Position numbers and translations under genes: made by a program. A DNA stretch of 64,000 nucleotides from Tessaracoccus antarcticus. Its GTDB lineage: Bacteria > Actinomycetota > Actinomycetes > Propionibacteriales > Propionibacteriaceae. Shown piece by piece: positions 18,124 through 58,999 of this stretch. Under the pieces are notes generated by a model. The model worked only from the letters and a program-made list of their open reading frames with translations. It was not told the origin of the DNA and searched no databases. The stretch lies in the NCBI RefSeq assembly GCF_003688855.1, contig NZ_REFW01000002.1, positions 620,001 through 684,000 on the forward strand, in the 5' to 3' direction. How positions within the stretch are numbered: position 1 is the first letter of the stretch; each line of letters begins with the position of its first letter.

Positions 18124-20409
18124 TCAGAAGCGCCGCGGAAACCGCATGCTCTTGAACAGGGCCTTCGCGAGGCGTTCACCTTCGGTGCCGAGGCTGTTGT
18201 CCGTGACGGTGTAGGCCCACGTGGCGCTCGGCCGGTGCAGCCCGGCACCCTCCAGGTCCAGCCGGCCGTCCCTCACCGTCGCCAAGGCCACGATCCGCAG
18301 GGCGTTCTCGATGCTTCCCGGCACGATGGATGGCCACGCCTTGGCCAGGATGCGGTTGAACTCATCCAGCGGGTCCTCCTTCACCAGAACCCTGAGATGG
18401 ATGCCCTCCCGAACAGATGTGGCGTACCCAAGGTGCTCGCTCCACGCACGGTCCACGCTGCTGAGCAGGGCCCTCCGCATGGCTCGCACCATTTCCGCCT
18501 CGGACACAGCGTCGGACAGCCGCTCCTGCAGGGCGGAATCGTGGGAAAGGACCTCAAGGATCGACGTGTCCTGCGTGAGCCACTCCTCACGAAGGCCGAG
18601 CAGCTTGCGTCGTTGGAGGCCGAGTAGTCGCCCGTAGCGCTGCGTAAGTCCCCGCAGGCTCGCGTGCGCTCCGTCGCTGACCTGTTGGGCGTGGTTCGGG
18701 AGTTGACGCAGGCGGGGGTCGAGGACTTCCCCCACGACCGTCACCTGCTGGGGATCCTTGTGCCCGGGCGCCGCCTGATGGATGAGTTCGTCATCAAGGC
18801 CCCACAGGAACACAGAGCGTCCCGGGTCCCCCTGGCGGCCGGAGCGCCCCCGGATCTGGTCCTCGAGCCTCTTGCTCGGGAAGATGCCGAGACCGACGAT
18901 GAGCAGCCCTCCCGAAGTTCGGGATTCGTGCGACGGGCGGATGTCGGTGCCCCGGCCGGCCATCTGCGTGGACACGGTGATGCGACCGGGCTCCCCAGCG
19001 CGGGCAATGATGGTGGCCTCACGTTCGTCGTTGAGAGCGTTCAGGACCGCCACGGGCAACCCGATGTCCACCACGCGGGCCGCGAACGCCTCGGACATGG
19101 CCACCGACTGGGTTGCCACGAGCACCGGCTGACCCGTCGCATGGGCGTCGACGAGGAGGTCCAGGGCAGCGGCATCCCGTTCGGCTGCCGTCCGGAACAG
19201 GCGACCGGGTTCGTCCTGGCGCACGCACGGTTCGTTGGGCGGCAGACGGCCCACCTTGAGTCCGTGGGTTTCCTGCAGTTCCTCGGACGCCGGCACCAGC
19301 GTCGCGCTCATGCCGACGACGCTGCGATACTCCCCCAGGAGGTCGGCCATGGTGATCTGGTCCAGCACGTCGAGTGCCGGACTGGGGGACAGCCCCTCCT
19401 TGGCCTCGATGGCGGACTGGAGCCCCTCCGGCCATCGCTGGAGCTGTTCGATGCGTCCCCGTGCCTGGCTGACCATCCAGGCCCGCCCCCCACGGATGAC
19501 GTAGTCGACGTCACGCACCAGCAAGACTTCGGCGTGCAGTGCCACGTGTGCCTCGGCCAGCACTTCGTGGTCGTCACCGAAAAGGTCCACGCCCGTGAAC
19601 CATTCCTCCAGTGCGACGAAGCCTTCGTCCGTGAAGTGGAGGGACCTGCGATCCACGTCCACCTCGTAGTGCCTGCCCTGCACCAGAGTGGCCACCATCT
19701 CCCCTATGGACGCGGTGGGGCCCGCAGGGGCAGTGTCGGATTCGCCGGCCAACACCAGCGGGGTCCGGCCCTCGTCGAGCAGCACCGCATCGGCTTCGTC
19801 GAGGATTGCCACCCGTGCTGTGGACCTGACGCGTTCGGTCGCGGCATGGGCGAGTCGGTCCCTCAGGATGTCGAAGCCGGCCTCGCTGACCGGCACGTAG
19901 GTGATGTGGGCCCCGTAGGCCCGACGCCGCGCGCTGGGGGTGGTGTCCGCGGTGACCACGCCGACGGTGAGCTGCAGTGACGCGAAGAACGGTGCCATCC
20001 ACGCGGCGTCGCGGCGGGCCAGGTACTCGTTGGCGCTGAGGACGTGGACGATACTGCCGGACAGTGCGTGGCCGGCCGCCACGATGGCCCCCACCAGTGT
20101 CTTGCCCTCGCCGGTGTCCATCTCCATCGAGACCCCACGGAGCATGGCAGCGGCTGCCTGCAACTGCACGTCGAAGGGCCGCAGGCCGACGGTGCGGGCC
20201 GCCAGTTCGCGGGAGATGGCGAGGTAGGCCGCCAGACCCACGCGGGTGTCCACGGACAATTTACGCGAGGCAGCGAGGAGTTGATCCTCGCTCCAGTCCT
20301 CGAAGTTGCTCGCCCCGGATGCACGCACGACGGCGGCCAGTGCCGCGACCTCGGCCGCCGCCGGGCGTTGGTGGAACCAGTCGCGAACAGGTTCGAGCCA
20401 GTCCCTCAT
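18124..20409 (-). CDS. secA2: Accessory preprotein translocase ATPase SecA2
   Basis: A 761-residue SecA-family ATPase, shorter than the housekeeping SecA (above 900) and close to actinobacterial SecA2. It has Walker A MDTGEGKT, DEADAVLLDEGR, the VGMSATL motif and TQMAGRGTDI plus GRSGRQGDPG of the second motor domain. The C-terminal zinc/SecB-binding tail of SecA1 is missing. SecA2 exports a limited set of proteins together with SecYEG. No obvious substrate gene is adjacent; the DUF4349 lipoprotein converges on it with a 90-base gap. The ATG has no clear ribosome site. The upstream region is shared with the divergent monooxygenase gene. Confidence 0.88.
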   Translation of the reverse strand: MRDWLEPVRDWFHQRPAAAEVAALAAVVRASGASNFEDWSEDQLLAASRKLSVDTRVGLAAYLAISRELAARTVGLRPFDVQLQAAAAMLRGVSMEMDTGEGKTLVGAIVAAGHALSGSIVHVLSANEYLARRDAAWMAPFFASLQLTVGVVTADTTPSARRRAYGAHITYVPVSEAGFDILRDRLAHAATERVRSTARVAILDEADAVLLDEGRTPLVLAGESDTAPAGPTASIGEMVATLVQGRHYEVDVDRRSLHFTDEGFVALEEWFTGVDLFGDDHEVLAEAHVALHAEVLLVRDVDYVIRGGRAWMVSQARGRIEQLQRWPEGLQSAIEAKEGLSPSPALDVLDQITMADLLGEYRSVVGMSATLVPASEELQETHGLKVGRLPPNEPCVRQDEPGRLFRTAAERDAAALDLLVDAHATGQPVLVATQSVAMSEAFAARVVDIGLPVAVLNALNDEREATIIARAGEPGRITVSTQMAGRGTDIRPSHESRTSGGLLIVGLGIFPSKRLEDQIRGRSGRQGDPGRSVFLWGLDDELIHQAAPGHKDPQQVTVVGEVLDPRLRQLPNHAQQVSDGAHASLRGLTQRYGRLLGLQRRKLLGLREEWLTQDTSILEVLSHDSALQERLSDAVSEAEMVRAMRRALLSSVDRAWSEHLGYATSVREGIHLRVLVKEDPLDEFNRILAKAWPSIVPGSIENALRIVALATVRDGRLDLEGAGLHRPSATWAYTVTDNSLGTEGERLAKALFKSMRFPRRF

Positions 20410-20558
20410 GCAGATGCCCGGGGGCTCGCAGCGCGGGTGCCAGCCGCCGGTGCCGATGGCATCGTGGTGCGGGGGTCGGCGGTCATGTCACAAGTATGAC
20501 TCCGACCCGATCAGCGGCTCGGAGTCGCGGCGTCATTGACGCGGCCCCGCGCCCGGCA

Positions 20559-20573
20559 TACGGTCGAGCCGTG
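20559..20573 (+). promoter_or_regulatory. Leaderless -10 of the monooxygenase gene
   Basis: TACGGT ends six bases before GTG 20571, with no Shine-Dalgarno sequence between. Confidence 0.45.
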
Positions 20574-21659
20574 ATCTCACGTGCAACGGTGGTGGGCGCC
20601 GGCGTCGTTGGTCTCGCGATGGCGCGGGGTCTCGAGCGACTGGGCTGTGACGTGACCGTCCTGGAGCGGGCGACCGCTCCCCGCCAGGATGGTGCCGGCC
20701 TCACGTTGTGGCCGAATGCCCTCAGCGCCCTGGACACCATCGACGCCGGCGAGGAGGTTCGCGCCATCGGGGAGCCCGTGCGTCGCGCCATGGTCCTGCG
20801 CGACAGCGGTCGGCCACTCACCGAGTTGCCCATCACGGCATTGACGCAGCAGTACGGTCCATTGTTCGCGGTGCTCCGCAGCGACCTCACACGCACGCTC
20901 GCCGAAGGACTGCATGCTCCCGTCCACTACGGCGTCGACGTCACCGTCGTCGGAGGGCAAGCGCTGGTGGATGGACGACCACCGGACACCGAGCTCCTCA
21001 TCGGCGCCGACGGCATCGAATCCACGGTGCGCAGGACCTTCCTCAGAGGGGTGCGTCCACGTGCCAGTGGTCAGTTCGCCGCGCGTGGCGTGGCACGGAC
21101 AGGAGCAGCGACACCGGTGATGATCACCGAGTCCTGGGGCCGGGGACTGCGGTTCGGGATGGTGGGGCTGCAGCACGGACTCACCTACTGGTTTGCCGCG
21201 ACCGGGACGCGTGAGGCTGCGGAGAACCTGCCCGACACATTTGCTCTCTGGCACGCACCCATCGCCGACGTGCTGGCTGCGCCGCAGCTGGGTGGCACGC
21301 CGGTCCTTCCGCTGCTCGAGCTTCCGAAGCTGCGCACCTGGCACAACGGGCTGTCGACCGTCCTCATCGGGGATGCCGCACATGCCATGACACCGAACCT
21401 GGGCCAGGGTGCGGCCCAGGGGCTCGAGGACGTGGCAGTGCTTCTCGCCGAACTCCAGCGACTCCCACTCCCGCAGGCCCTCATCGCCTACGAGCGTCGC
21501 CGGAAACGCCGTGCGGAACAGATGGCGGCACGCTCGCGACTGGTGGGGACTCTCGCCCAGGGCGCCCACCCGATGCTCGCCGCGCTGCGCGATGGCCTCG
21601 CTCCGCTGACCCCCAGAAACGTCATGGCCCACCAACTCTCCGCCATGCTGCGCGGCTGA
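20571..21659 (+). CDS. FAD-dependent monooxygenase (PHBH/UbiH type)
   Basis: A 362-residue class A flavoprotein hydroxylase. The FAD dinucleotide motif is VVGAGVVGLAMARGLE at residues 6-21. The DG motif is LLIGADGIESTVR, and the GD motif TVLIGDAAHAMTPNLGQGA binds the FAD ribityl chain. These three motifs define aromatic-ring or polyketide hydroxylases that use NAD(P)H and O2. The substrate is unknown, and no biosynthetic cluster surrounds it. The GTG start fits the leaderless pattern; upstream extension of the frame has no flavoprotein similarity. Confidence 0.88.
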   Translation: MISRATVVGAGVVGLAMARGLERLGCDVTVLERATAPRQDGAGLTLWPNALSALDTIDAGEEVRAIGEPVRRAMVLRDSGRPLTELPITALTQQYGPLFAVLRSDLTRTLAEGLHAPVHYGVDVTVVGGQALVDGRPPDTELLIGADGIESTVRRTFLRGVRPRASGQFAARGVARTGAATPVMITESWGRGLRFGMVGLQHGLTYWFAATGTREAAENLPDTFALWHAPIADVLAAPQLGGTPVLPLLELPKLRTWHNGLSTVLIGDAAHAMTPNLGQGAAQGLEDVAVLLAELQRLPLPQALIAYERRRKRRAEQMAARSRLVGTLAQGAHPMLAALRDGLAPLTPRNVMAHQLSAMLRG

Positions 21660-21739
21660 GCGACGCCGGGTCCAGTCGGCACCTCGCGCTCCGATTCGCC
21701 GCAACCCACGTCGGAGCTTTCACGAAATTTTCCCCGGGT

Positions 21740-21753
21740 TAGAATGCGGCATG
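21740..21753 (+). promoter_or_regulatory. Leaderless -10 of the winged-helix gene
   Basis: TAGAAT ends five bases before the ATG. The surrounding CACGAAATTTT is AT-rich for this genome. No clear -35 is seen. Confidence 0.5.
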
Positions 21754-22026
21754 ACCCAGTCCTGGACGTTCCTCACCAACCATGGTCATGTACTCGTGCA
21801 ACTCGCACGGGACCCCGAACAGACCATGCGCGACATCGCCGACAAGGTGGGCGTGACGGAACGAGCAGTGCAGCTCATCGTCAGGGACCTTGCCGACGGG
21901 GGCTACATCACGATCGAGCGAGTGGGGCGCCGCAACACCTACACCGTCTCGACCGAGCGACCACTGAGACACCCTGCCGAGAACGCGACCAGCATTGGGG
22001 AGCTCATCGACCTGATCCACGGCTGA
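21751..22026 (+). CDS. Small winged-helix transcriptional regulator
   Basis: A 91-residue DNA-binding protein. LARDPEQTMRDIADKVGVTE followed by RAVQLIVRDLADGGYI is a winged helix-turn-helix of the MarR/ArsR type, with the recognition helix near residues 35-50 and the wing in ITIERVGRRNTYTV. There is no ligand domain and there are no cysteines for metal sensing. It sits 486 bases upstream of, and on the same strand as, the DabB-DabA fusion gene, so it is a possible regulator of that gene or of the monooxygenase; this is inference from position only. Confidence 0.8.
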   Translation: MTQSWTFLTNHGHVLVQLARDPEQTMRDIADKVGVTERAVQLIVRDLADGGYITIERVGRRNTYTVSTERPLRHPAENATSIGELIDLIHG

Positions 22027-22512
22027 CGCAGGATGCCGACGTCCACGCTGGCCCACGCCCAGGACCATGGGCGACGGCGACCTCAAGCGTGGCGAGGTCG
22101 CGCACTGCGTAACGGAGGGTGATGCTCGGCCTCGGTGAGCACGGCCATGACTCCCCGCACCGTGGCCGCGCGGGTGCGCCGTGCGATCAGCACCTCGTGG
22201 AACGTGGGAGCGGCTCTCAGGGTGAGCCCAGGTATGGCGGCCGCCTGGGTCGTTGTTCCGCCGGCAGGAAAGCCCAACGGGTGGTACGGGGCTCACTCCT
22301 CCAGAACCGAATTGCCGAGCCAGGCGTCGCTTGCGAACAGCAGGTGCATGCGGGAACCCTTGAACTCACCACGGTGGGCATGGTCCGTGCCCACGGAGCC
22401 AGTCTCGCGCACCCGAGCCGGCGGCGTACCGTCCCGAGGGTCGACGATGACGACGTGGTCCACGATGTAGACGGTCTTATTCACGAACTAAACTTCATGT
22501 AAATTTCTTCGT
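22027..22512. other. 486-base region without a confident gene
   Basis: The region lies between the winged-helix gene and the DabB-DabA fusion. The only coding-like signal is on the minus strand: a 63-codon frame with high GC at third positions, then an in-frame TGA, then about 65 further open codons. The last 40 bases before the fusion gene are AT-rich and hold its likely promoter. No terminator or repeat was seen. Confidence 0.6.
22293..22484 (-). CDS. Possible 63-residue protein or gene remnant
   Basis: GTG-started frame on the minus strand, beginning NKTVYIVDHVVIVDPRDGTP and ending SDAWLGNSVLEE. Third positions are strongly GC, as in real genes here. It has no clear ribosome site, and no family is recognised. 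After its TGA the same frame stays open to 22083, so the 63 residues may be the intact N-terminal part of a gene interrupted by a stop. It is divergent from the fusion gene and shares its AT-rich upstream region. Confidence 0.3.
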   Translation of the reverse strand: MNKTVYIVDHVVIVDPRDGTPPARVRETGSVGTDHAHRGEFKGSRMHLLFASDAWLGNSVLEE

Positions 22513-22515
22513 ATG
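22500..22515 (+). promoter_or_regulatory. Leaderless -10 of the DabB-DabA fusion gene
   Basis: TAAATT ends seven bases before the ATG, in the most AT-rich stretch of the neighbourhood. No Shine-Dalgarno sequence is present. Confidence 0.5.
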
Positions 22516-25500
22516 TTTATGTGGATTGTGCCGCGCAGCGCGGCGAGCGTGGTGTTCATCAGTGGTGTCTGTGCGGGGGTGGCGGTCGCCATACGGACGT
22601 CCGTGACCTGGGGCGTGGCCGCCGGGGGAGCGACATGGGGTGTCCGCGTCGACGCACTGTCGTCGGTCCTGCTGGTTTTCGTGGGGTTCCTCACCTGGCT
22701 GGTGGCCGGGTATGCGCGAACCAACCTGCACGGCCAGGAACGGCTCGCCAAGTTCTGCCTGACCTTCACCGTTGTCGTGCTCGCACTGGGTCTCATGGTC
22801 GCGGGCTCCAACCTTGTCCTCGTGGCGGCGGGGTTCTCCGTGAGTGGGTGGGGGATTGCTTCACTGATCGCCCATCCCCGCACCGTGTCGGCACTGCGTG
22901 CATCGCGTCTTGTCCGGCGCCGTCTCCTTCTCGGGGATGCGGCACTCTGGGTGGGCGTCGGGATCGCCGCGGTGGCCCTCCCGACGATCGACCGAGAAGG
23001 CCTCCATCCGGGCTCAACGTCAGTCACTCTCGCCGTTGTCGCATGCCTCGTCCTGGCGGGCACGGTGCGCTCCAGCCTGTTCCCGTTCCATCGTTGGCTC
23101 CCCGAGACGGCCGAGGCACCCTCGCCGGTCTCGGCGCTCCTGCACGCGGGGCTCGTCAACGGTGCCGGCATCATCGCCCTTCTCTGCTGGCCCCTGTACC
23201 GTGCGGCCCCCGTGGCGCTGGGGGCGATGGTCCTCATCGGGCTGTGTTCCGTGGTGCTCGGCACCCTCAACGGCCGGGTGCGCACCGACGTCAAGGGCCA
23301 GCTTGCCTGCTCCACGACGGCGCAAATGGGTTACATGACCCTGCAGATCGGCCTTGGTCTGCCTGCCGCGGGACTGCTCCACCTGCTCGGTCACGGCTGC
23401 TACAAGGCGTGGCTGTTCCTCCGCGCCGGTGGCGCCATCACCCGCGGCAGGGCCCTGAACCGCACCGCGGTGACACACCGTGCCGCCAGCTTCGCGGGGG
23501 GTACCACGGCAGCGTGCGTCGCGGTCCTCGTCGGATTCCCGGCCATGCTGATGCAGACGGCAGGGGTGATGGGATTGCTCCCGGGTGCGCTCGCCCTTGC
23601 CGTGGCCGCCGCTGCCGGCGCCGCCATCGGAGGACAGCGAGCCACCGCCGCCCGCCTGGCAGCGGTGGTGGTGGGAGCAGGCGTGGCCTCTGGTGGATAC
23701 CTGTGGCTCCTGCTGGGCTGGGAGCACCTCGTGGGCGCTCCACTGTCGGGCGATCCGATCTGGTCCGGCTGGACGGGGTTCCTGTTGCTGTCCGGTGTCA
23801 TTGCTCTGGGCCTGGTCACGGCACGGCTGGCAACCGATGTCACACGGGCGCCGTCCGGCGTGCTGGCGACCACACTGAGCGGTGCCGGCCTCCCACCGTG
23901 GAGCCGAAGGATCGGCGGGTCACTCACACCCCCTGATGTGTGCGCGCCGGTGGGGACGGGTGATGGAGCGGAGGCGGAGGAGGTGCAGGCGCTCATCCGC
24001 ACCGCCGGTGCCGTCGTGTCGCCCGCCTGGCCCCTGCGCGAGCTCGTGGCTGCCAATCCCCTCGCCGGGCTCACTGTCCTGCCCTTCGACGAGGCCGTGA
24101 CCATCATGGAAGGAGTCCATGGCGCCAGGATGCATCTGCCGCTCCACAGCTACCTCGACCTGTTGGATAGCGGGCGCATCACGGAGCACGGCCTGTCGGC
24201 AGCGCTCGATGAGTACCCCACGGCTGCGAAGACAGGACGCGGGATCTCCGATGTGTCCGGGTTCGTCCGCCGCTGCCGGGAGGCCGCGGACGCGCCCACG
24301 ACTCCTCACGTGAGTGTTGGACGGCGCTTTTCCGAAGTCGGGACCCGCCCTCGGCGTCGGGTCGTCGGGCTCGACGTCCCACTCTCCGAGGTGGTGGACG
24401 ACCATGCGGCCTGGTGGACGCAGCGGGCGTGGGCTCGCGTCGGTGATGTGGAGCGCGGGCCGTGGAGCCTGTGGCGGGAGGCGGCTGTGCGGCCCGTCTA
24501 TGACCGTGTCATCGGGGTACGGGGGGCCTCAGCCTGGGCGGCTGGCCTGCCGCAGGACCCTGCGGCGGCCATCGGGGAGTTGCTGCGGCGGGTCAACGTC
24601 GAGTCGCGTCTGGGCTACGTCTGTGCCCTCCTGGCCTCGGGACCGGGATGGGCGTCCCATGCGCAATGGCGGGGCCGTCAGCATGACACGGAGGTGCCTC
24701 TGCTGGAAGTGGTGGCCCTGCGCATGACCCTGGACATGCTCGCTGCGCTGAGCGTGGGCGGCGGCGCGTTCACCGATGTGGTGGCGACGACGCCAATGGT
24801 CACGGAAGGGAGCATGCCCTGGCGCCCGGAGCGGGTGTGGCAGCGCGCCTGGGAGATCGGGATCCACGAGCGGATGCTGGCGTCGATCGTCCACGGTGCG
24901 TCCGAGGCAAGCATTCCCACCGAAGCACCCACGGCGGACCTCGTGCTGTGCATCGATGTGCGCTCGGAGCGGTTGCGGCGCTCACTGGAGGAGGCAACGG
25001 CCATCCGGACCCACGGTTTCGCTGGATTCTTCGGTGCTGCCATCCGCGTCCAGGACAGTGCGGGGAGGGGGTTCGACCAGTGTCCGGCGCTGATCCGCCC
25101 CTCGGCCGTCGTCCCGACCGGCAGACGCCCCCTCACCCTGCGGCAATTGGCACACCGCGGTGTCACCGGCGCGACGTCGACTCCGCTGCTTGCGCTGCTG
25201 GTGGCCGAAGCGGCCGGTGCGCTCTCCGGTCTGGCCTCTCTGGCCTCTGCCCAACTCCCGGCGCAGTGGCGACGCCAGAGCGAACGCTGGGTGTGGGGAG
25301 GCAGAGTCTGGGACCAGGTGCGTCTCCCACGTGTGGCGCCTGCGGGCCTTCGTGACGGGGCGCAGGTGGGCCCCACGCTGGAAGAGAAGGCGGGGATTGC
25401 CGCCGGGATGCTCCGTGCCATCGGGCTTGTCCAGGGCTTTGCCCCGCTGCTGGTGGTCTGTGGACACGAGGCCGCAGTCGCCAACAATGCGTTCGCCGCG

Positions 25501-26433
25501 GCCTACGACTGCGGTGCCTGCGGTGGCAACAGTGGCCGGATCAACGCCCAGGTGGTGGCCTCCATGCTCAACGAGCCGGCCGTCCGGGAAAGACTGGTCG
25601 AGCAGGGCATCACCATTCCCACGGGGACGTTGGCCATCGCCGCCGTCCACAACACCACCACGGACGTGCTGGAGCTTGATGCCTCATCACCCGGCTGGGA
25701 GAGCCACCGGGCGGAACTGGAGTTGCTGCAGTACCAGGCGCGCCCTGCCGGTCAGCGCTCCGTGGCACAGCGGATGGCCTTCCTGCCCTCGCGGCCGGGA
25801 GACAGCCGATCCCGCACGGCTCAGGAGAACGCCGCCCGCAGGTCAGCTGACTGGTCTGAGCCCATGCCCGAGTGGGGTCTGGCGGGCAACCTGGCCATGG
25901 TCGTCGGTCCTCGCCGCATGACGGCCGGGCTGGACCTGGCGGGGCGGGTGTTCCTGCAGTCCTACGATGCCACTCTGGACACCCCGGAGCACGGGATCCT
26001 TGAGCAGATCCTCACGGCGCCCGTGGTGGTGGGCCAGTGGATCAATGCCCAGTACTACTTCTCGACCATCGCACCGGAGACCTTCGGTGCCGGCGACAAG
26101 ACCACGCACAACGTGGTGGGTGACGTGGGCGTGATCACGGGATCCCACGGTGACCTGCGCACGGGTCTGCCCTGGCAGTCACTGTCGCCGGTCGACCTGC
26201 GCACCGACCCCCTGGCAGCCCGGCACGAACCGGCCCGCCTGATGGTGGTGGTGGCGGCCGCGCCCGAGGCCGTGGCCGCCGTGTTGCGGAGGCAACCTGA
26301 CCTGTACGGGCTGCTCACCAACCGGTGGCTCCGGATCCTCTGCATCACCGACGCGCACCCCGAACCGGTGGAGATGCACCCCGATGAGCTCAGGCGAGCT
26401 GTTCCAGCAGACCAGTGTCGACGTCATACATGA
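22513..26433 (+). CDS. dabBA: Fused DabB-DabA inorganic carbon transporter
   Basis: A single chain of 1306 residues. Residues 1 to about 465 are a NuoL/MrpA-type membrane subunit (DabB-like) with 12 or more helices; proton-path features are LPETAEAPSPVSALLHAG (196-213) and HLLGHGCYKAWLF with His290, His294 and Lys298. A hydrophilic linker near 468-490 leads into a complete DabA (DUF2309/UPF0753) part, beginning SPAWPLRELVAANPL. The four zinc ligands known for Halothiobacillus DabA (C351, D353, H524, C539) appear at C813, D815, H985 and C1000, with spacings of 2, 170 and 15 against 2, 171 and 15. In the family, DabA hydrates CO2 to bicarbonate in a reaction coupled to cation flow through DabB. 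Usually these are two genes. The frame is continuous, without a stop at the junction. Confidence 0.92.
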   Translation: MFMWIVPRSAASVVFISGVCAGVAVAIRTSVTWGVAAGGATWGVRVDALSSVLLVFVGFLTWLVAGYARTNLHGQERLAKFCLTFTVVVLALGLMVAGSNLVLVAAGFSVSGWGIASLIAHPRTVSALRASRLVRRRLLLGDAALWVGVGIAAVALPTIDREGLHPGSTSVTLAVVACLVLAGTVRSSLFPFHRWLPETAEAPSPVSALLHAGLVNGAGIIALLCWPLYRAAPVALGAMVLIGLCSVVLGTLNGRVRTDVKGQLACSTTAQMGYMTLQIGLGLPAAGLLHLLGHGCYKAWLFLRAGGAITRGRALNRTAVTHRAASFAGGTTAACVAVLVGFPAMLMQTAGVMGLLPGALALAVAAAAGAAIGGQRATAARLAAVVVGAGVASGGYLWLLLGWEHLVGAPLSGDPIWSGWTGFLLLSGVIALGLVTARLATDVTRAPSGVLATTLSGAGLPPWSRRIGGSLTPPDVCAPVGTGDGAEAEEVQALIRTAGAVVSPAWPLRELVAANPLAGLTVLPFDEAVTIMEGVHGARMHLPLHSYLDLLDSGRITEHGLSAALDEYPTAAKTGRGISDVSGFVRRCREAADAPTTPHVSVGRRFSEVGTRPRRRVVGLDVPLSEVVDDHAAWWTQRAWARVGDVERGPWSLWREAAVRPVYDRVIGVRGASAWAAGLPQDPAAAIGELLRRVNVESRLGYVCALLASGPGWASHAQWRGRQHDTEVPLLEVVALRMTLDMLAALSVGGGAFTDVVATTPMVTEGSMPWRPERVWQRAWEIGIHERMLASIVHGASEASIPTEAPTADLVLCIDVRSERLRRSLEEATAIRTHGFAGFFGAAIRVQDSAGRGFDQCPALIRPSAVVPTGRRPLTLRQLAHRGVTGATSTPLLALLVAEAAGALSGLASLASAQLPAQWRRQSERWVWGGRVWDQVRLPRVAPAGLRDGAQVGPTLEEKAGIAAGMLRAIGLVQGFAPLLVVCGHEAAVANNAFAAAYDCGACGGNSGRINAQVVASMLNEPAVRERLVEQGITIPTGTLAIAAVHNTTTDVLELDASSPGWESHRAELELLQYQARPAGQRSVAQRMAFLPSRPGDSRSRTAQENAARRSADWSEPMPEWGLAGNLAMVVGPRRMTAGLDLAGRVFLQSYDATLDTPEHGILEQILTAPVVVGQWINAQYYFSTIAPETFGAGDKTTHNVVGDVGVITGSHGDLRTGLPWQSLSPVDLRTDPLAARHEPARLMVVVAAAPEAVAAVLRRQPDLYGLLTNRWLRILCITDAHPEPVEMHPDELRRAVPADQCRRHT

Positions 26434-26881
26434 AACCGCCCACCTCGGCCCGGTCCTTGATGAGGGGGTGGTTGCGGACGGCGCGGACGTCGTGCTGGAG
26501 GCGCTGCACCTGGTCGGGTGTGGTGCCGAACTCCAGCCATGTGGTGTCGAGCCCGCTGCGCTCCGAGATCACCGCACGGATGTCCTCGTCGCTGCCGTTG
26601 GCCATGGCGCACTTGGTGTGGGGGACGATCATGATGCGGTCGACGTTCAGCAACTGCACGCTGAGGGCGAGGCCCGTCATCATCGAGGTGGACACGCGGC
26701 CACCGGGTGAGCGCAGGATCTTCGCCTCCCCGATGTGGAGGCCCACCATGGCCAGCGGCTCAATGCGCGAGTCCATGCAGGTGAGGATGGCGACGCCTGA
26801 GCGGGCAATGCCGTCAAACCCGCCGTGCTCGAAGTCCTGGGCGTACACCCCGTTGGAATCCAGAAGATCAGTGAAGCTCAT
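26390..26881 (-). CDS. Beta-carbonic anhydrase
   Basis: A 163-residue zinc enzyme interconverting CO2 and bicarbonate. The ligands are Cys35 in TCMDSR, with the Asp37/Arg39 dyad, and His88 and Cys91 in PHTKCAM. Its length equals that of the M. tuberculosis Rv1284 type as I recall it. The start is the ATG after AAAGGAG. It converges on the DabB-DabA gene and the two coding regions overlap by 44 bases at their 3' ends. Functionally it would equilibrate the bicarbonate pool that the transporter fills, or feed carboxylases; the pairing is inferred from position. Confidence 0.92.
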   Translation of the reverse strand: MSFTDLLDSNGVYAQDFEHGGFDGIARSGVAILTCMDSRIEPLAMVGLHIGEAKILRSPGGRVSTSMMTGLALSVQLLNVDRIMIVPHTKCAMANGSDEDIRAVISERSGLDTTWLEFGTTPDQVQRLQHDVRAVRNHPLIKDRAEVGGFMYDVDTGLLEQLA

Positions 26882-26943
26882 CAGCGCTCCTTTCTCGCCC
26901 AGATTAGTGCCCCGCGGGGATTCTTGGCACATCACGTCCGTGG

Positions 26944-57813: not shown

Positions 57814-57884
57814 GGTGGAGTGGCCGAGAGGCGAGGCAACGGACTGCAAATCCGTGTACACGGGTTCAAATCCCGTCTCCACCT
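57814..57884 (+). tRNA. tRNA-Cys (GCA)
   Basis: Acceptor GGTGGAG/CTCCACC, anticodon loop CTGCAAA (anticodon GCA), T-arm CGGGTTCAAATCCCG, discriminator T. It ends one base before the next tRNA. CCA is not encoded. Confidence 0.96.
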
Positions 57885-57885
57885 C

Positions 57886-57957
57886 GGGCGATTGGCGCAG
57901 TGGTAGCGCGCTTCCCTGACACGGAAGAGGTCACTGGTTCAAACCCAGTATCGCCCA
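57886..57957 (+). tRNA. tRNA-Val (GAC)
   Basis: Acceptor GGGCGAT/ATCGCCC, anticodon stem CTTCC/GGAAG with loop CTGACAC (anticodon GAC), T-arm GGTTCAAACCC. Unlike its three neighbours it is followed by an encoded CCA (57958-57960). Last gene of the cluster, with a terminator right behind it. Confidence 0.96.
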
Positions 57958-57967
57958 CCAGCAGATG

Positions 57968-57997
57968 AGGAGCGGCCACGTGTGGCCGCTCCTTTTT
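57968..57997 (+). terminator. Rho-independent terminator of the tRNA cluster
   Basis: Stem AGGAGCGGCCAC/GTGGCCGCTCCT with a minimal loop, followed directly by a run of T. Confidence 0.93.
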
Positions 57998-58033
57998 TGT
58001 GTTGTCCATCGCCCATGTGTGGCGGTGCCCCGC

Positions 58034-58048
58034 TACGTTGGCGTCATG
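58034..58048 (+). promoter_or_regulatory. Leaderless -10 of the YbaK-like gene
   Basis: TACGTT ends six bases before the ATG; no Shine-Dalgarno sequence. Confidence 0.45.
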
Positions 58049-58534
58049 CGTATCAACCGCTCCTCCGGTACCCCGGCGACAGTGGCCCTCGAACACGCAG
58101 GCGTGGCGCACACCGTCCATGCCTACGAGCACAACCCTCGGGCTGAATCCTTCGGGTTGGAGGCGGCCGCGGCCCTCGATGTGGATCCCCACCGTGTGTT
58201 CAAGACACTTCTGGTGGACACCGGTGACGGACTCGCTGTCGGTGTTGTGCCCGTGACGGGGTCCCTGGATGTGAAGGCTCTGGCACTGGCGCTGGGTGTC
58301 AAGAAGGTGGCAATGGCTGCCCCGGCCAGCGCGGAACGCAGCTCCGGGATGGTGGTGGGCGGCATCAGTCCCATTGGTCAGAAGCGTCCCCTCCCCACGG
58401 TCCTGGACAGCACCATGCAGCAGCACGGGACGGTGCTGGTGTCCGGGGGACGGCGAGGGCTCGATGTCGAACTGTCGCCATGCGACCTGGCGCACCTCAC
58501 CAACGCCACCTTCGCCCAGATCAGCCGCCCCTGA
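58046..58534 (+). CDS. ybaK: YbaK/EbsC-type aminoacyl-tRNA deacylase
   Basis: A 162-residue editing enzyme that hydrolyses mischarged Cys-tRNA-Pro. Family marks are the N-terminal STGTP-like SSGTPATVAL, DPHRVFKTLLVD with the conserved Lys, DVKALALALGVKKVAMA, and VVGGISPIGQKRPLPTVLD, which carries the GGxSPxGxK segment. Complete and cytosolic. It lies just after the tRNA cluster; the closeness of a tRNA-Cys gene is probably chance. Confidence 0.92.
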   Translation: MRINRSSGTPATVALEHAGVAHTVHAYEHNPRAESFGLEAAAALDVDPHRVFKTLLVDTGDGLAVGVVPVTGSLDVKALALALGVKKVAMAAPASAERSSGMVVGGISPIGQKRPLPTVLDSTMQQHGTVLVSGGRRGLDVELSPCDLAHLTNATFAQISRP

Positions 58535-58666
58535 GGTGGTGCACAACAGGTACACCGAAAATCGCTGGTGCACGGGGAATCCCCGAGGCTTGGGTCGCAG
58601 ATGGCTGCCACTCACAGCCGGCACCGTTGGGGCAACCAACCCCACACACGCCGCACGATGGCGGGC

Positions 58667-58681
58667 TAGAGTCCCCCCATG
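58667..58681 (+). promoter_or_regulatory. Leaderless -10 of the MazG-like/helicase module
   Basis: TAGAGT followed by six C and then the ATG; no Shine-Dalgarno sequence. Confidence 0.5.
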
Positions 58682-58999
58682 CCTAGCACCGAACTGTTGG
58701 TCGAACTCCGTGAATTCGTTCGTGAGCGGGACTGGGGACAGTTCCACTCGCCAGAAAACTTGGCGAAGAGTATCTCCATAGAGGCGGCCGAGTTGTTGGA
58801 GTGTTTTCAATGGGGTGGGGACGCTGACCGATCCCGAGTGATCGGCGAACTCGCCGACGTCCTGACTTATTGCTACTTGATGGCTGAGCGGCTCGGGATA
58901 GATGCCGACGAGGCTGTGGCGAACAAGCTCCTCGTGACCCGCGGCAAGTATCCGGTGGACACTGCCCGCGGGACGAGCACGAAATACGATGAGCTTTGA
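58679..58999 (+). CDS. MazG-like nucleotide pyrophosphohydrolase
   Basis: A 106-residue all-alpha NTP pyrophosphohydrolase (MazG/dCTPase type). The metal-binding pattern is in SIEAAELLECFQW (ExxE) and ELADVLTYCYLM (ExxD), followed by KLLVTRGKYPVD, as in the dCTP/dUTP pyrophosphatase group. Such enzymes cut NTPs to NMP and pyrophosphate. Base composition drops at this gene relative to its neighbours, with more A/T-ending codons. The next gene starts 11 bases before its stop, so both are one translational unit. Confidence 0.88.
   Translation: MPSTELLVELREFVRERDWGQFHSPENLAKSISIEAAELLECFQWGGDADRSRVIGELADVLTYCYLMAERLGIDADEAVANKLLVTRGKYPVDTARGTSTKYDEL

Follow-up and report, generated by a model that had tools for sequence, protein, structure and literature searches.

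The window analysed here, a stretch of 64,000 nucleotides from Tessaracoccus antarcticus (contig NZ_REFW01000002.1; coordinates below are window positions), carries a gene, dabBA, that joins the two parts of a DAB inorganic carbon pump, the NuoL-like subunit DabB and the beta-carbonic-anhydrase (beta-CA)-like DabA, in one predicted polypeptide. A single uninterrupted frame with zero internal stops runs on the forward strand from an ATG at 22513 to a TGA ending at 26433 and encodes 1306 residues (137.4 kDa). An initial annotation made from the letters had read this frame as a DabB-DabA fusion, and Pfam searches bear the reading out: PF00361, the DabB (NuoL-like subunit) family, matches residues 172-314 (93.7 bits, cut-off 21.5), and PF10070, the DabA family, matches residues 495-1273 over the full length of its profile (1-747 of 747; 624.6 bits, E 3.7e-187). 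PF00662 at residues 40-81 falls slightly below its cut-off of 24.5 with 23.8 bits. The product matches 48 NCBIfam families; the 25 matches listed are all NuoL-, NuoM- and Mrp-type models lying inside residues ~6-440, each under its curated cut-off. The best matches in the Protein Data Bank (PDB) are the two chains of DAB2 from Halothiobacillus neapolitanus, DabB2 (9rd0_B) for the N-terminal half (query residues 40-399, E 5.4e-31) and DabA2 (9rd0_A) for the C-terminal half (query residues 489-1281, E 8.1e-87). From these matches and hydropathy we delimit a DabB part of residues 1-443 (22513..23841), a linker of 45 residues (444-488; 23842..23976) between the end of the last hydrophobic segment and the start of DabA homology at residue 489, and a DabA part of residues 489-1306 (23977..26430). 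A linker had been proposed before, and one is present, but the earlier span of 468-490 was too short. GC content at third codon positions (GC3) stands at 0.81 for the DabB part and at 0.82 for linker and DabA taken together. Assembled in 13 contigs (3.65 Mb, completeness 100), the genome contains one DabA match. Judged by frame and homology, dabBA is a real, well-conserved single-chain DAB pump, and the proposed actinobacterial host is supported.

Window residues were mapped by alignment to the chains of 9rd0, and fused proteins were compared at 14 positions in 19 sequences. The zinc ligands C351, H524 and C539 of DabA2 correspond to C813, H985 and C1000, and its Asp353-Arg355 dyad to D815/R817. 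In the solved DAB2 structure zinc is coordinated by two cysteines, one histidine and a water, with an Asp-Arg dyad alongside (PMC13144422). The initial claim that the catalytic residues of Halothiobacillus DabA are conserved is thus upheld, the residues in question mapping to C351, D353, H524 and C539, as are three of its four zinc ligands; D815, the supposed fourth, is instead the dyad residue. The finger glutamate Glu444 of DabA2 is E899, which lies inside a hydrophobic segment, and S356, A376, H585 and D590 (DabA2 numbering) are also identical. On the DabB side, D185, S256, H260 and K310 of DabB2 align with D142, S207, H211 and K261, and S316, H339, H343 and K347 with S267, H290, H294 and K298, the last three having been picked out correctly beforehand; all seven NuoL-type proton-path residues (S207 and those listed after it) are kept. 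In DAB2, replacing the zinc ligands, the dyad, the finger glutamate or the S256-K347 set impaired CO2-limited growth (PMC13144422). None of the 19 fused proteins departs from the zinc ligands or the dyad, and DabB precedes DabA in every one; the finger glutamate is replaced by aspartate in one (L127), the S316 position is glycine in one (L129), and the linker sequence is variable.

Distribution and phylogeny of the fused forms

We searched overlapping genome samples at four ranks and found DabA to be patchy, with matches in 5/197 genomes of the family, 12/391 of the order, 31/394 of the class and 23/396 of the phylum. Counting a fusion solely where DabB and DabA matches share one frame, the fused form occurs in 2 of the 5 family genomes, 8 of the 12 in the order, 12 of the 31 in the class (where G870, cut, and G964, with no locus, were left unclassed) and 2 of the 23 in the phylum, several members of which are partial. 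A ninth order-level genome, G295 (L075), has its DabB and DabA halves in different frames; no DabB stop lies at the junction, and sequencing error, decay or frameshifting could each account for it. A contig scan found one relative, in Nocardioides pinisoli (Propionibacteriales, Nocardioidaceae), with matches identical to those of G222, from the same order as the window. Frame length was rejected as a count of fusions: several phylum frames of ~1300-1390 residues are insert-bearing DabA proteins with DabB-like genes in other frames. A DabB nested inside DabA was likewise rejected, the inserts yielding no DabB match (blastp, E 1e-4). In five phylum-level loci (L014-L017 and L021), DabA carries an insert of several hundred residues and is flanked by two NuoL-like genes, the finger glutamate is His or Gln, Ser356 is Glu and Leu658 is His; these are possibly DAB1-like or of a functionally different type.

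In first trees of 27 rows, the nine fused-type Propionibacteriales rows, including the out-of-frame L075, form one clade (SH-aLRT 99 for DabA, 100 for DabB), and the fused protein of Acidimicrobium ferrooxidans groups with H. neapolitanus. Forcing all ten fused-type rows into one clade is rejected (p-AU 7e-40 for DabA, 2.6e-5 for DabB), and on these trees a common origin of the A. ferrooxidans and window-clade fusions is rejected. Larger trees (47 DabA and 46 DabB rows) place 18 rows with seven family labels, 17 of them in frame plus L075 and the window included for both halves, in one clade (SH-aLRT 94 and 99, respectively). These trees are quick ones made with no bootstrap, some rows are odd in composition and L119 sits on a long branch; insert-type or partial members were left out (L018, L023, L027-L029 and L032-L040 from the phylum; L102, L104-L108 and L118 from the class), and the cut L115 entered the DabA tree only, unlabelled. 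G954 (L095/L120) falls outside the clade and might be a third independent fusion (p-AU 0.105 for DabA, 0.0175 for DabB). The window's DabA part is 52% identical to its nearest tree row.

The split loci of Actinomycetota offer a route to the fusion. In 12 of the 13, a 4-nt overlap links the dabB stop with a candidate dabA start, so that a small frame change at this junction could join the two genes, which is probably how the fusion arose. Among the split genes, those of L081 (7052-10857, G163) and L004 (1-3806, G055) share 99.87% identity across 3806 bp, the two genomes being placed in separate genera, which points to either recent transfer or contamination.

Candidate promoter and regulator, and surroundings of dabBA

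Upstream of the candidate start on the forward strand, we observed a -10 hexamer, TAAATT (22500..22505), at -13..-8 of the start codon, and an inverted repeat, GAA-N6-TTC (22485..22496), as a candidate operator. Both recur at fixed positions among 31 DAB loci (33 including the window, minus two cut at contig ends). TANNNT stands exactly at -13..-8 of the candidate dabB start in 17/31 loci against 23/465 shifted placements, although the hexamer of L132 is probably there by chance, being far inside the frame; GWA-N6-TWC stands exactly at -28 in 17/31, and in 13 of these the arms are fully complementary; no other offset exceeds 9/31. As visual inspection of part of this sequence set had revealed both elements before any counting, the counts are descriptive. 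Palindromes of the form GAA-N6-TTC or GTA-N6-TAC abut the leaderless-type hexamer before dabB or dabBA. Since their placement pins the start, we set it at 22513, upstream of which the frame is open for merely 6-7 codons, and the arrangement suggests a leaderless dabBA transcript.

A pinned start permits the N-terminus to be measured, as the residue count between start and anchor column (N71 in the window). This distance is 71 residues in the window, 60-77 in the 13 other pinned in-frame clade members and 72 in the out-of-frame L075, compared with 94-106 in the five pinned split loci and ~113 in DabB2. The remaining clade members are cut at contig ends (L123, L129) or unpinned (L124), and the eight unpinned split loci have their most upstream possible starts at 93-104. 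By this measure, clade members with a promoter-pinned start lack the first transmembrane helix (TM1) of DabB2, and hydropathy predicts a DabB part of 14 helices with both ends cytoplasmic. A strict tie between TM1 loss and fusion was rejected, as the split L133 (94 residues) has a hydrophilic N-terminus and seems to be without a hydrophobic TM1. Because L133 seems to lack the helix and the A. ferrooxidans fusion retains a longer N-terminus, the loss is a clade trait that accompanies fusion without resulting from it.

Between these elements and the preceding gene lies a small frame (21751..22026, forward strand) for a 91-residue winged-helix protein (HTH_24/MarR_2 in Pfam), whose one match in the window genome is itself. 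Homologues (E <= 1e-6) occur in 22 of the 32 other DAB loci, namely 11 of 18 fused (two of the 18 are truncated by contig ends), 10 of the 13 split and also L075, at 0-2615 bp from the DAB frames and in many cases divergent. Linkage to DAB loci together with the single match in its own genome suggests that this protein is a dedicated DAB regulator, and we hypothesise that it binds the GAA-N6-TTC palindrome. At L041 the palindrome is present with no regulator within 8 kb on either side.

In the same-genus genome G180, ~75 bp lie between a carbonic anhydrase gene and a SecA-like gene; the window has, between the same two genes, a segment of ~6.0 kb (20411..26389; DNA comparison with L085 and protein synteny) carrying a flavin adenine dinucleotide (FAD)-dependent monooxygenase-like gene, the regulator and dabBA. 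The monooxygenase-like gene (20496..21659, forward strand) matches PF01494 on a longer frame, 20064-21659, and has all of its 25 listed NCBIfam matches under cut-offs. On the far side, the beta-CA gene (26390..26935, reverse strand; Pfam and translation) is convergent with dabBA and overlaps its 3' end by 44 bp; it is the single PF00484 match in the window genome, and its translation keeps the CxDxR and HxxC motifs that we take to mark such enzymes. Within the family sample, the sole other same-genus genome with DabA, G163, carries DAB genes of the split type, and its carbonic anhydrase gene lies far away from them. The simplest reading would be that the DAB segment was gained in the window lineage, the alternative being loss elsewhere. 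A functional link between the pump and the beta-CA by synteny was rejected: a carbonic anhydrase homologue is present in 36/39 same-genus genomes, and in a check of 12 other loci no such gene was found close to the DAB genes. The beta-CA neighbourhood looks like an accident of insertion. The SecA-like protein adjoining the insertion (761 residues; 18124-20409, reverse strand) is syntenic in the close relatives L084 and L085. Elsewhere in the window, at 57866-58810 (reverse strand), stretches of 25-27 residues match the same-order loci L078 and L079 at 85-96%, perhaps as a mobile element end or an RNA gene read as protein.

Proposed function and relation to known systems

Taken together, we consider it likely that the window protein is a single-chain DAB (DAC-type) inorganic carbon pump, probably feeding biosynthetic carboxylases, that was acquired with its regulator next to a resident beta-CA. 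In such a pump, the buried beta-CA-like zinc site of the DabA part (C813, H985, C1000 and a water, with D815/R817) would hydrate CO2 on the cytoplasmic side, the finger helix bearing E899 would insert into the NuoL-like DabB part, and protons running through the latter down the membrane potential would make hydration effectively one-way, so that HCO3- would accumulate in the cytoplasm (vectorial CO2 hydration). The single chain would fix a 1:1 assembly, and the pump, brought in beside the beta-CA with its winged-helix regulator, would probably supply bicarbonate to biosynthetic carboxylases of a heterotroph when CO2 is scarce. No RuBisCO large-chain match was found in the window genome by a search that was positive in 5 of 14 control genomes, in keeping with the initial view that the pump does not serve CO2 fixation by RuBisCO, and no phosphoenolpyruvate carboxylase match by one positive in 7 of the 14. 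Together with the one PF00484 match, these results fit a heterotroph that provides bicarbonate to other carboxylases.

Several observations weigh against this proposal. The genome already has a beta-CA, which makes the benefit of a pump less than obvious; PMC13144422 recounts an argument that the homologue MpsAB relies on a sodium gradient; and the loss of TM1 could alter coupling. Three positions of the DabB ion-pair region are changed (I151, R182 and K235 of DabB2 are S109, L139 and R186), and the DabA2 tunnel residue R653, called conserved (PMC13144422), is M1118. R182 and K235 are, however, both replaced in 10/10 split, non-insert actinobacterial rows (nine distinct DabB sequences), none of which has arginine at the R182 position (0/10); all ten have it at the K235 position, as do the tabulated fused rows except A. 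ferrooxidans. Because split rows share them, the two replacements look like lineage traits rather than defects of fusion, and as alanine variants of R182 and K235 in DAB2 still complemented, at lower yield (PMC13144422), the mismatch does not exclude DAB membership.

Other explanations account for the gene less well. One polypeptide might be made and yet work as two subunits, through proteolysis or internal translation starts at the linker. The overlapping genes of the split relatives, which imply an ancestor that probably translated two proteins from a single mRNA, and the variable linker would suit such a scheme, but the halves have stayed in one frame in 17/18 clade members despite long divergence (the 52% identity noted above), and we regard it as unlikely. 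Given the NuoL/MrpA homology of its N-terminal half, the protein might instead serve mainly to translocate ions (by antiport of H+ or Na+, or to generate membrane potential), with DabA as a gate and not a CO2 hydrase. Against this stand the zinc ligands and dyad, invariant in 19/19 fused proteins and needed for low-CO2 growth in DAB2 (PMC13144422), which render the idea decidedly improbable. That the fusion stems from an error of sequencing or annotation, as the broken frame of L075 might hint and as a hidden stop or frameshift near codons 465-490 would have meant, is contradicted by in-frame fused homologues in other genomes and by coding-type GC3 on either side of the junction, leaving it scarcely any credence. 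The preferred reading remains the single-chain pump.

More tentatively, and as something possible that we would stop short of calling probable, the Actinomycetes may possess another class of single-chain inorganic carbon pump that evolved independently of the first, with a 14-helix DabB without TM1, a cytoplasmic N-terminus, a leaderless promoter with a palindromic operator and a dedicated carbon-sensing winged-helix regulator, pump and regulator being passed together from one heterotroph to another. Natural fusion has occurred at least twice, always with DabB first, which favours regarding DabB and DabA as components of a single machine. With a linked regulator and a candidate operator to hand, the way heterotrophs sense and supply bicarbonate becomes directly testable. 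The family is also promising material for structure, mechanism and the engineering of carbon uptake: the wild-type DAB2 complex was unstable and dissociated in cryo-electron microscopy (cryo-EM) preparation, so that an artificial fusion was needed (PMC13144422).

The fused architecture as such is already known. The initial annotation knew of no characterised fused form; the two DAB genes of the iron oxidiser A. ferrooxidans have, in fact, been reported as a single fused gene (Fan et al. 2019, PMC6689103), and the 2026 DAB2 structure paper names the product as a naturally occurring single-subunit system (PMC13144422). The DAB2 structure was itself solved on an engineered DabB2-DabA2 fusion of the same order, which had no significant effect on growth yield (PMC13144422). 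Single chains, whether natural or engineered, already count as DAC, so the one-chain form does not exclude the window protein from that group. Beyond the mentions of A. ferrooxidans, we found no actinobacterial DAB fusion in the literature searched, where the present lineage, together with its loss of TM1 and the regulator/operator unit, seems not to have been described.

Among known systems, MpsAB of Staphylococcus resembles the window protein in its two families and in supplying bicarbonate in a heterotroph, but is encoded by two genes; the likeness is drawn from published description (PMC6689103). DAB2 of H. neapolitanus (PDB 9rd0) is alike in both domains, the zinc site, the dyad, the finger glutamate and the proton-path residues, and differs in being naturally two genes, in having TM1 and in the four residues I151, R182, K235 and R653. 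The 13 split Actinomycetota operons (L081-L083, L130-L139) share the B-A gene order, in the 8 of 13 tabulated the same zinc site, dyad, finger glutamate and proton-path residues, and in most cases the regulator, while differing in their two genes with the candidate stop/start overlap and in a longer DabB N-terminus. The A. ferrooxidans single-subunit DAC (L080) is a natural fusion with the same order and the same catalytic residues, which is set apart by its separate origin, a longer N-terminus that includes an additional hydrophobic stretch, and a lysine at the K235 position.

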